A DNA stretch of 15,470 nt from Thiobacillus sp. (lineage in GTDB: Bacteria > Pseudomonadota > Gammaproteobacteria > Burkholderiales > Thiobacillaceae): contig JAIWOL010000099.1 in NCBI GenBank assembly GCA_020216925.1, positions 1 to 15,470 on the forward strand, written 5' to 3'. The notes under the pieces were generated by a model. That model was given only the letters and a program-made list of their open reading frames with translations, had not been told where the DNA came from and did not search any database. Both the position numbers and the translations under genes were made by a program. Of this stretch, positions 11,412 to 15,394 are shown piece by piece. Position 1 is the stretch's first letter. Every line of letters begins with the position of its first letter.

Positions 11412-12308
11412 TCACGATTCGCGCCACCCGCAGATCACCAGCACATCGCCCTGCGATTCGGCCAACACGTGCTTGGTCACGCTGCCAAGCAGCAATTCCT
11501 CCATCGCATGCTGGCCGTGCTTGCCCATTACGATGAGGTCGCAGTCGCGTTCCTGCTCCTGTTCGATGATCTGCTGCGAGGGATCGCCATGCACCACAAG
11601 CGGCGTGTAGCCGTCGATGCCGAGTCCGGTCTGTAGCGCAAGCTGACGCATACGCTGCCACGCTTCCTCGCGTGCGGCGTCGCGGTAGCGCTGGATCACG
11701 CCCTCCTCGACGCCAGCGTAGGCCAGCTTGCCCTCGAAAGGCGCCTCGAAGGCGTTCAACAGGACGATGTCGGCAGTTGGGGCGAGTTGACGGGCGAAAC
11801 CAATCGCCTGCACCGAGACGGGCGAAAAATCGACCGGAATCAGCAGGCGGCGATAGGCCTCATGCGGCACCTGCTTGACCACCAGCACGGGATGGCGCGT
11901 TGTCTTGCGCAACAGGCGCGACGCCATCGAACCCAGCGCCAGATGGCGCAGGAAGCCGCTGCCATGCGCGCCCAGCACCAGCAAATCGGCATCGAGGGCA
12001 GCGGCGCGCTCGATGATCGTGGCCAGCGGCGAGCCGGATACGATCGTCGCTTCTGCGGCCACGCCGCGAGAAAGAACACGCAATTGTTGGGCGAGCGTTT
12101 CCCGCGCCTGGTCTTCGAGCTTGCGCTTGACGTCAGCGAGATTGTCTCCGAGCCATTCGCGCATGGCGTCCATCGCATCCAGATCGAGCGCGTGGAGCAC
12201 GCTGAAGCCTGCGCCCGTTTCAGCAGCAATGCGAACACCGCGCTCGACTGCGTGGCGTGCGGGCGCCGAAAGATCCGTGGCGGCAAGAATGCGGGTGATC
12301 GGTTTCAT
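11412..12308 (-). CDS. Universal stress protein with two UspA domains
   Basis: A 298-residue cytoplasmic protein made of two UspA domains (about 4-146 and 153-294). Each ends in the ATP-binding pattern G-2x-G-9x-G-S: Gly113, Gly116 and Gly126-Ser127 in the first, Gly262, Gly265 and Gly275-Ser276 in the second. Both domains therefore look able to bind nucleotide. Tandem Usp proteins of this kind often accompany ion transporters and may tune them under stress. The ATG overlaps the stop of the upstream Kef gene by four bases (ATGA), and GGAG lies inside the end of that gene, so expression is coupled to it. It ends convergently with cfa, with a 103-nt gap. Confidence 0.92.
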   Translation of the reverse strand: MKPITRILAATDLSAPARHAVERGVRIAAETGAGFSVLHALDLDAMDAMREWLGDNLADVKRKLEDQARETLAQQLRVLSRGVAAEATIVSGSPLATIIERAAALDADLLVLGAHGSGFLRHLALGSMASRLLRKTTRHPVLVVKQVPHEAYRRLLIPVDFSPVSVQAIGFARQLAPTADIVLLNAFEAPFEGKLAYAGVEEGVIQRYRDAAREEAWQRMRQLALQTGLGIDGYTPLVVHGDPSQQIIEQEQERDCDLIVMGKHGQHAMEELLLGSVTKHVLAESQGDVLVICGWRES

Positions 12309-13945
12309 TGACGGTTCTCCTTCGGCCGGATCAGCTCGGTGAGTGCTTCGACGGCATAGTCTACGGCGTTGCGCATCGGGTAGAGGATGGTGGGGGCGCC
12401 CAGGTGCTTGAGGGCGACACCTTCAAAATCCTCGCGCGCCACGATGGCGACTTCGCCGGGATAACGGTGTTCGCGCAGGGCTTGCAAAAGGCTGCGATTG
12501 GAGGCGAGATCCGGCAGCGTGCTGATGATCCAGCTGGTCTGCGCCAGCGGCAGACTCTCGATAAACTCCGCTGCCACGCCGTCGCCGTAGCGCACCACCA
12601 TCCCCTGGCGGCGCATGGCGCGCGCCACTTCCGGATCGAATTCGACGCCCAGCACCTTCAGGCCGGCGTCCTTGAGCCCGAGCGCCAGGCGGGCACCATA
12701 GCGGCCGAGACCAAAGACGATCACGTCCGCCTCTTTTAGATCGTGCCGTTCCGCCGCCACGGCCAGTTCGCGGAAAGGCCGCCGGCGCTCGAACCACCCC
12801 AGCCAGGGCGCAAGCTTTTCATACAGCGGGTGCGAATAGAGAATCATGTAAGTCGACAGCGCAATCGTGGTAATGCCGACCAGCGTGGTCAGCCCCAGGG
12901 CTTCCTTGCCGACATGGCCGAGCGAAATGCCCATGGCGACGAAGATGATGGAGAACTCGCTGATCTGCGCCACGGTGAGGCCTGCGAGGAAGCCGGTGCG
13001 CTTGCGGTAGCCCATGTAGCCCATGATCGCCATGACGATCAGCGGGTTGCCGATCAGGACAAACAGCGACAGGATCGCCGCCGGCCAAAGCTCGCCGCCG
13101 AGCGTGGAAAAATCCAGCTTGGCGCCAAGGTCGATGAAAAAGAACAGCAGCAGGAAATCGCGGATGCCGGTAAGCCGCGCGTTGATGGCGTCGCGGTAAT
13201 GCGTCGAGGCCAGCGAAAAACCAGCCAGGAAAGCGCCGGCTTCCTTGGAAAAGCCGGCCCATTCGCCCAGCGCCGCCAGTCCGGTGCCCCAGGCGATGGC
13301 GAAGACAAGCAGCAGTTCCTGCGAGCGCGCCATCAGCTCCACCACCTTCGGCAACACATAACGCATCAGCAGGTAGATGGCGGCGGCGGCCACCGCAACG
13401 CGCCCGATCAGCGAAACCGCCACCTCCGCCATGGCGGCCTCGCCGCTGCCGCGCAGGGTGCTCATCGCCATCATCGCCAGCACCACCGCCAAATCCTGCA
13501 CGATCAGAAAGCCGACGGCGATGCGGCCATGCAGCGAGTCGATCTCGCGTTTGTCGGAGAGCAGCTTGACGATACCGTCACGCATCACCACGGCGTGCAA
13601 AGACAGCATGCTGCGGATCGCATCGAGCAATTTCTCGGCCTTGCCATCCTGCAGAAAGCCGATCAGGGCGTTGATGAACACCACGCCGACGATGACCGCC
13701 GTGTCGATCCTGTGCCCCAGCGCCGCGGTAACGCCCGCCGCGCCGAGCAGCACATAGATCAGAATGTTGTGAAACTGGAGCAGAAAACGGATCAGCGGTC
13801 CGCGCCTTTTTGGCGGCGTCAGACAGTTGGGGCCGTGCTCGGCAAGGCGCTTCCTTGCCTCACCTGTGGATAGACCGGCAGCCGTGACACCCTGCGCCGC
13901 GAACACTTGTTCCGGCTTTGCCGCATGCCAGATCGGGTTCGACAT
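12305..13945 (-). CDS. Chimeric protein: P-type ATPase N-terminus fused to truncated Kef-type cation/proton antiporter
   Basis: Residues 1-124 are the start of a P-type cation ATPase: the cytoplasmic N-domain (GLSTGEARKRLAEHGPN) and the first two membrane helices (LLQFHNILIYVLLGAAGV, DTAVIVGVVFINALIGFLQD). They end at VVMRDG, where the actuator domain should begin. From residue 125 (IVKLLSDKREIDSLHGRIAV) the protein is a Kef/CPA2 antiporter. It keeps the Gln150-Asp151 ion motif, about eight helices, GAFLAGFSLA and a C-terminal TrkA-N Rossmann domain (FGLGRYG 411-417, acid Glu435). The ATPase DKTGT and TGES motifs and roughly the first four Kef helices are absent. The frame is open through the join, near 13571-13576. 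GAGGGGGTG precedes the ATG. Whether it transports anything is doubtful. It is coupled to the Usp gene by ATGA overlap. Confidence 0.88.
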   Translation of the reverse strand: MSNPIWHAAKPEQVFAAQGVTAAGLSTGEARKRLAEHGPNCLTPPKRRGPLIRFLLQFHNILIYVLLGAAGVTAALGHRIDTAVIVGVVFINALIGFLQDGKAEKLLDAIRSMLSLHAVVMRDGIVKLLSDKREIDSLHGRIAVGFLIVQDLAVVLAMMAMSTLRGSGEAAMAEVAVSLIGRVAVAAAAIYLLMRYVLPKVVELMARSQELLLVFAIAWGTGLAALGEWAGFSKEAGAFLAGFSLASTHYRDAINARLTGIRDFLLLFFFIDLGAKLDFSTLGGELWPAAILSLFVLIGNPLIVMAIMGYMGYRKRTGFLAGLTVAQISEFSIIFVAMGISLGHVGKEALGLTTLVGITTIALSTYMILYSHPLYEKLAPWLGWFERRRPFRELAVAAERHDLKEADVIVFGLGRYGARLALGLKDAGLKVLGVEFDPEVARAMRRQGMVVRYGDGVAAEFIESLPLAQTSWIISTLPDLASNRSLLQALREHRYPGEVAIVAREDFEGVALKHLGAPTILYPMRNAVDYAVEALTELIRPKENRQ

Positions 13946-14303
13946 GATGACACCCCCTCAATATCAAACGGTACCAGCAATACGTTGCTGCGACATAGTA
14001 CAACCCATTCCGGCTGACGCCGCCGAAGCAGGCCCCTCGATTCGCATCACGCCATGCACGCCCGCCTTGGACGTGGCTGATGGCCTAGCGCGCATCCTGA
14101 TGGGTTGGCAGGCCGGGCAGGGGAAGAGCGCACAGCCGGTTTTCCGGTTGCGCCTGGCGCGGGTGGATGCGGCTGGTATTCGGCGGCCTGCGACCGAATC
14201 AGTCCCGCCGTGACGCGCACGTTGCAGAACTCGCCGGATCAGACGGGCAAAGTGTCGCTGGACACGGATAAACAACCCGCCAGCCAATCGGGCCGGGGAT
14301 AGT

Positions 14304-14521: not shown

Positions 14522-15394
14522 ATGATCAAGTTCACTGTACTGAGTACCAAGGGCGGAGTAGGTAAGACCACTCTAGCTGCCAATCTTGGCGCGCTGATGG
14601 CTGATATGGGCCTGCGCGTTTTGCTGGTTGACGCGGACGTACAGCCCGCGCTCTCCAAGTATTTCAGGATCCGACGCGAGGCCCCATTCGGACTGACCAA
14701 GGTCATCACGACCGGTTACGTCACCGAAGACTGCATCTCGCAAACTGAAATCGATGGTCTGGATGTTATCCGATCAGATGATCCGGATGGAAGCCTTCAA
14801 ACATGGCTCCTTCATCGCATTGATCGTGGTGAACGCCTCGGAAATGCACTCAATTCGCCTGCTGTATCAGATGATTACTACGACTGCGTTCTGATCGACA
14901 CGCAAGGTACAGTTGGACCGCTGCAAGACACAGCAGCACTCGCTGCAACCCAGATCATTTCGCCAATCAAGCCGGAAATCCTGTCTGCTCGGGAGTTCAA
15001 GACCGGGACGATGGAGCTGTTGGCGCGCCTTGAGCCGAGCCCAAATTCTCAGTATCGGGTTGGCCCTGTCAAAGCAGTCATTTCAATGCAGGACAGAACC
15101 GCTGACGCCCGGATCATTGCCGAGTCGATTCGGCAGGACTTCCTGAAACTGGGAGGCCGAGTCACGGTTCTGGACACCGTGGTTCCGGATGCCAAGTCCT
15201 ACAAGGAATCCGCAACGATGTGCGTGCCTGCGCATCGTCACGAACCATCTCGTAAAGGCACCATGCCTTCTGCCTACGAGACCATGCACGCCCTTTTGTG
15301 GGAGCTTGTTCCAAGTCTTGCGGGGCATTACGCGGGGTCCGGGCACCCTTCGCCCGGCTCATCAGCTGCAGACAACGGCGGAGCGGACGAATGA
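14522..15394 (+). CDS. parA: ParA/Soj ATPase of the integrative conjugative element type
   Basis: A 290-residue deviant-Walker ParA ATPase, used for partition or maintenance of excised elements. Residues 7-19 hold STKGGVGKTTLAA with the signature lysine at 10. LLVDADVQP (34-42) and LIDTQGTVGPLQD (124-136) complete the nucleotide site. The block SPIKPEILSAREF and the ending VPAHRHEPSRKG..PSAYETMHALL are features of the ParA proteins encoded near one end of ICEclc/PFGI-1/SPI-7-like elements rather than of chromosomal ParA. GGGGAGGG lies just before the ATG. Three hand-counted 60-base lines in its first half give about 48% GC, against about 62% for one line in rhlE, so a separate origin is likely. 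The tail after residue 270 is Gly/Ser-rich. The stop overlaps the next start (ATGA). Confidence 0.93.
   Translation: MIKFTVLSTKGGVGKTTLAANLGALMADMGLRVLLVDADVQPALSKYFRIRREAPFGLTKVITTGYVTEDCISQTEIDGLDVIRSDDPDGSLQTWLLHRIDRGERLGNALNSPAVSDDYYDCVLIDTQGTVGPLQDTAALAATQIISPIKPEILSAREFKTGTMELLARLEPSPNSQYRVGPVKAVISMQDRTADARIIAESIRQDFLKLGGRVTVLDTVVPDAKSYKESATMCVPAHRHEPSRKGTMPSAYETMHALLWELVPSLAGHYAGSGHPSPGSSAADNGGADE

Follow-up and report, generated by a model that had tools for sequence, protein, structure and literature searches.

An in-frame fusion of P-type ATPase and Kef antiporter gene remnants in a Thiobacillus draft genome, most likely left by a deletion

The window, that is, the whole 15,470-nucleotide stretch of Thiobacillus sp. 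DNA analyzed here, contains on its reverse strand a reading frame (12305-13945) that is open without a stop codon over 546 amino acid residues in translation, and in which the beginning of a P-type cation ATPase continues in frame as the later part of a Kef-type antiporter. The most likely explanation is a recent lesion that put both transporters out of action, not a new kind of protein. We consider it fairly probable that a cluster of ATPase, Kef, and universal stress protein (Usp) genes was hit by a recent deletion of approximately 2.7-2.9 kb, and that the remnant is likely non-functional as a transporter. A first-pass annotation had proposed such a fusion, and both the open frame and the Pfam split bear it out. 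The features are collected in Table 1.

Table 1. Features of the fusion gene and its surroundings; positions are those of the window.
Feature	Position	Strand	Basis
Candidate ribosome-binding site GAGGGGG of the former ATPase gene	13953..13959	-	
ATPase-derived part, residues 1-124, comprising the N-terminal segment and the first helix pair (P2-type cation ATPase)	13574..13945	-	
Cation_ATPase_N, residues 6-72	13730..13930	-	Pfam, 1.8e-15
Join, ATPase Gly124/Kef Ile125, in frame	13573..13574	-	Codon comparison with L131 ATPase and L033 Kef
Kef/CPA2 antiporter part, residues 125-546, beginning at residue 129 of the intact protein and running to the stop	12305..13573	-	
TrkA-N (RCK/KTN) domain, complete	12377..12724	-	Pfam TrkA_N, residues 408-523
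Tandem universal stress protein (Usp), intact	11412..12308	-	Pfam Usp, 1.7e-49, two stretches

Pfam reveals no ATPase domain in the fusion other than Cation_ATPase_N. The Na_H_Exchanger match (residues 125-363; 2.4e-28) starts as late as position 121 of the 375 in its profile, whereas TrkA_N is matched over positions 1-116 of 116 (1.6e-14); the membrane domain is thus incomplete and the RCK domain present whole, in agreement with the earlier description of an antiporter entered mid-membrane with its TrkA-N domain intact. NCBIfam concurs, with P-type ATPase models on the first part and Kef-type models from approximately residue 125. P-type ATPases are characterized by the motifs DKTGT in the phosphorylation domain and TGE(S) in the actuator; both are absent from the fusion translation, as had been noted. 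Residues 1-124 had been read as the N-domain plus the first helix pair: the helix pair stands, but what precedes it is the N-terminal segment and not the nucleotide-binding N-domain. The ATPase start, MSNPIWHAA, is common to the fusion and the intact ATPase of locus L131, where GAGGGG likewise precedes the start codon, and the GAGGGGG found 5′ of the fusion probably served the former ATPase gene as its ribosome-binding site. At the other end, the Kef stop and the Usp start overlap as ATGA (12305-12308), so that the coupling claimed at first pass has been kept. The Usp is 80% identical to that behind Kef in locus L033.

Gly124 (13574-13576) is the last residue common to the ATPases and Ile125 (13571-13573), equivalent to Ile129 in P0003, an intact relative, is the first common to the antiporters; the break therefore lies between 13573 and 13574, within the six positions originally suggested. 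At the DNA level, the L131 ATPase (approximately 80% identical) and the L033 Kef (approximately 88% identical) served as proxies for the parents, and these share 0-1 nt at the join (1 nt to the left, 0 nt to the right).

Three protein searches, with the whole protein, residues 1-124, and residues 70-185 across the join, gathered 343 proteins including P0001, the window's own. The best 120 of at least 7999 matches to the whole protein are antiporters of 488-559 residues aligned over 76-84% of the query, the closest among the matches listed being P0002 (94%) and P0003 (93%). With residues 1-124 as the query, P-type ATPase domains are present in all of the best 120 of 736 matches, and 107 of these proteins are 860-920 residues long; the best listed, P0122, is a P-type ATPase of 892 residues with 83% identity over all 124 positions. 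The query across the join again yielded antiporters or ATPases among the matches listed. The first half is matched by 121 of the 343 proteins and the second by 223, P0001 being counted in both; of the other 342, 120 match the first half alone, 222 the second half alone, and none both. That residues 1-124 might instead be the usual N-terminus of a poorly known Kef subfamily is opposed by all three observations (antiporters that cover only part of the query, ATPase domains in the relatives of the first half, and P0001 as the sole protein matched by both); nothing was found in its favor, and within the sampled proteins it is refuted, leaving it a negligible probability.

Neither a sample of 398 further genomes from the order (E limit 1e-60, three candidates per genome) nor 55 other genomes of the genus yielded the join, and among 60 genomes of relatives, the window's own included, it occurs only in its own assembly. 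As these counts refer to matches listed or genomes sampled, a rare second copy could escape. Among 424 matching plasmid records, three have one place covering at least 80%, and the best plasmid match combines fragments of Kef and ATPase genes that have separate annotations. In the open-access literature searched, which is a part of the whole, no description of such an ATPase–Kef fusion was found, and the two Pfam names of the architecture occur together only in a yeast genome paper.

The arrangement of the parental genes can be judged from related loci. Twenty-seven loci with a match to the Kef C-half and an ATPase N half at 50% identity or more were fetched, two of which are the window itself; three of the remaining 25 (L043, L044, and L132) are nearly identical. 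In 21 of these 25, Kef is preceded by the ATPase in the same orientation, four have other arrangements, and a Usp follows Kef in many of the ATPase–Kef loci, so that relatives with the gene order proposed at first pass do exist. Measured from the start of the ATPase to the Kef join residue, the distance, accurate to approximately 20 nt as the alignments start at residues 1-7, is 3083-3232 nt in 13 loci (one being L130 of G022, from the same genus as the window) and 4677-5472 nt in eight, versus 372 nt in the window. If the ancestor had the tight arrangement, 2711-2860 nt are missing, which supports the original proposal that a few kilobases were deleted between neighboring genes. P0004 (Kef, 92%) and P0132 (ATPase, 80%) are both listed with a 25,672-base contig from one source, and are probably neighbors. 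In G060, the metagenome-assembled genome (MAG) of L033 and the nearest one with DNA available, the ATPase and Kef lie on different contigs, which counts against the deletion, as adjacency in the direct ancestor is an inference. The missing parts are absent from the window's own assembly: P0122 finds only the window stretch and distant pieces in two other ATPases (30-41%), P0132 likewise finds no remainder of the ATPase, and the whole of P0003 finds the window stretch and two distant paralogues at 29%, with no second place for Kef residues 1-128; overall, such distant paralogues are 28-42% identical. Since the assembly is 84.6% complete, this absence is not proof.

The deletion would have taken the ATPase gene from codon 125 onward, the spacer, and the first 128 Kef codons, leaving the frame open by chance. 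The product would consist of the cytosolic N-terminus and first helix pair of the ATPase, followed by what is left of Kef TM5b, by TM6-TM13 oriented as in the native antiporter, and by the RCK domain. P-type ATPases have a first helix pair that begins and ends in the cytosol; the end of TM5 is likewise cytosolic, so the remaining Kef helices could keep their orientation. KefC is described as a protein of 13 helices whose N-terminus faces outward; TM5 and TM12 are broken helices within a core of six, TM1 contacts TM8 in the dimer, and K+ is held by Q155, D156, T127, and the S125 carbonyl (PMC11150392). Intact P0003 has a match to KefC that spans residues 20-508 (6e-37), and its S124, T126, Q154, and D155 align with S125, T127, Q155, and D156. 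The Kef part of the fusion starts at the equivalent of KefC residue 130; consequently TM1-TM4, TM5a, and the TM5 break are gone, while TM6-TM13 and the RCK domain are kept. The QD ion-site motif of TM6 survives (Q150-D151, aligned with KefC Q155-D156), but the TM5 break with the other two K+ ligands is not present. The earlier estimate of about four lost helices is thus correct for whole helices, but in KefC numbering the first half and break of a fifth went with them.

With most of the actuator and all of the phosphorylation and nucleotide domains gone, the protein should not pump by ATP hydrolysis; without TM1 for dimer contact, the initial portion of the core, or the TM5 break, K+/H+ exchange is most probably impossible. 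Judged from the sequence, exchange is probably dead, transport by either mechanism unlikely, and the likeliest present role as a transporter is none. By way of its ATGA overlap, the remnant may still deliver translating ribosomes to the Usp gene, which is intact. The predicted structure of the fusion has a mean pLDDT of 61.8 and a pTM of 0.35, from an alignment of 31 rows of which only four are Kef relatives, and residues 106-154 fall below a pLDDT of 50 on this thin alignment; the intact control P0003 gave 63.5 and 0.56 with 37 rows, a depth unlike that of the fusion, and both predictions are weak.

One question is whether either half has decayed. At the 182 alignment columns that 97% or more of 219 relatives conserve, the Kef half never departs from the conserved residue; the ATPase half has one departure at 45 columns (120 relatives), a number equaled or exceeded by 28 of them. 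The comparison of dN/dS on both halves, proposed at the outset, gave 0.08 for the Kef half against L033 (16/14/118 differences at codon positions 1/2/3) and 0.20 for the ATPase half against L131, as compared with 0.19 for Usp and 0.17 for the intact pair L033-L034; it leaves the Kef half without decay. The terminal branch of the Kef half in the tree is 0.048, versus 0.041-0.049 in intact sisters. Relaxed selection on this half since the fusion is therefore unsupported by conserved columns, dN/dS, or branch length. For the ATPase half the signals conflict. Its terminal branch is 0.19 (rank 29 of 121), where sister P0123 has 0.041 and the median is 0.084; this length could reflect faster change after the fusion or the lack of a close sampled relative. 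In contrast, branches calculated from pairwise identities in a trio of the window, G060, and P0004/P0132 are 3.8% (Kef) and 12.6% (ATPase) for the window, 2.9% and 9.2% for G060, and 4.0% and 7.6% for P0004/P0132; the resulting ATPase/Kef ratios of 3.3, 3.2, and 1.9 reveal no clear excess in the window.

An undecayed Kef half points either to a young event or to a join created in assembly, and it counts against a deletion in that it fits selection or artefact equally well. In the case of an assembly or strain-mixture artefact, the genome would have a normal ATPase–Kef pair, of which the contig skips approximately 2.8 kb, and the Kef gene would look undecayed as it would truly be intact. The assembly is indeed a draft (196 contigs, 84.6% complete), and the join is unique to it among the genomes and proteins searched. 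However, the skipped pieces are not on any other contig, the proxies, at the identities given above, show no repeat that could have collapsed, the frame was kept (a chance of approximately one in three), and the joined genes are neighbors in relatives. On balance we regard an artefact as unlikely, though a serious contender.

Selection for the hybrid, in which the ATPase pair would anchor what remains of the Kef membrane part while the RCK domain takes on a new regulatory or leak-channel role, perhaps with Usp, appears improbable to us. The open frame, the retained start, RCK domain, and ATGA overlap, and the strong purifying pattern of the Kef part against L033 agree with it, but most of the divergence must predate the fusion, so the measured conservation cannot demonstrate such selection. 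Moreover, the join has no second copy in the genomes and proteins searched, the entrance of the core and half of the K+ site are gone, and the model, though built on a thin alignment, is poor around the join. No finding speaks for a working hybrid, and a newborn one, in which the ATPase pair replaces five lost Kef helices to give an RCK-gated leak or regulator with the coupled Usp, is quite doubtful. Were it real and functional, it would be a transporter hybrid caught soon after birth, and would test whether an elevator antiporter survives losing half its core. Among the three fates raised at first pass (dead, selected, or assembly error), we favor recent loss of function: more likely this is plain gene loss by deletion within an accessory ion-transport cluster, for which the automatic label "cation:proton antiporter" would mislead.

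In the surroundings, dapA shares 79-81% identity with its counterparts in three same-genus genomes and 70% with that of G060, a Rhodocyclaceae MAG, and Cfa mirrors this pattern, whereas for the Kef half the identity is 93% to G060 and 66-69% to the majority of same-genus copies. In same-genus G011, Cfa is followed by no Usp or Kef match within the stretch read. On these identities the Usp-Kef part (11412-13945) was probably acquired horizontally. Beside it, at the contig end, lies a ParA-type ATPase gene (14522-15394) with a GC3 of 0.59, versus 0.76-0.86 in the other measured genes; its plasmid matches are only short ones, to ParA genes on three plasmids, and no tRNA was found in the window. 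This gene is possibly the edge of a mobile element. Elsewhere in the genus, a related Kef gene is interrupted by TAG in G027 (C159:12819-14129), which makes the antiporter seem dispensable, and another in G002 (C9:11125-12648) matches as two pieces at 74% and 51%; together these cases suggest that the antiporter may be lost or altered repeatedly within the genus.

By comparison with KefC (PDB 8bxg, 8by2, and 9emb), residues 125-546 are alike in the QD motif, the later core helices, and the RCK domain, but are without TM1-TM4, TM5a, and the TM5 break bearing the S125/T127 ligands. Residues 1-124 share the start and the M1-M2 stretch with the P2-type ATPases P0122, P0123, P0126, and P0132 (78-83% identity); everything past residue 124 in these proteins, catalytic domains included, is missing from the fusion. 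Bacterial gene fusions by deletion between neighbors are of a known kind, and the present case resembles them in joining adjacent co-directional genes in frame; unlike them, it has its join inside a transporter core, and only the RCK domain stays a complete functional unit.
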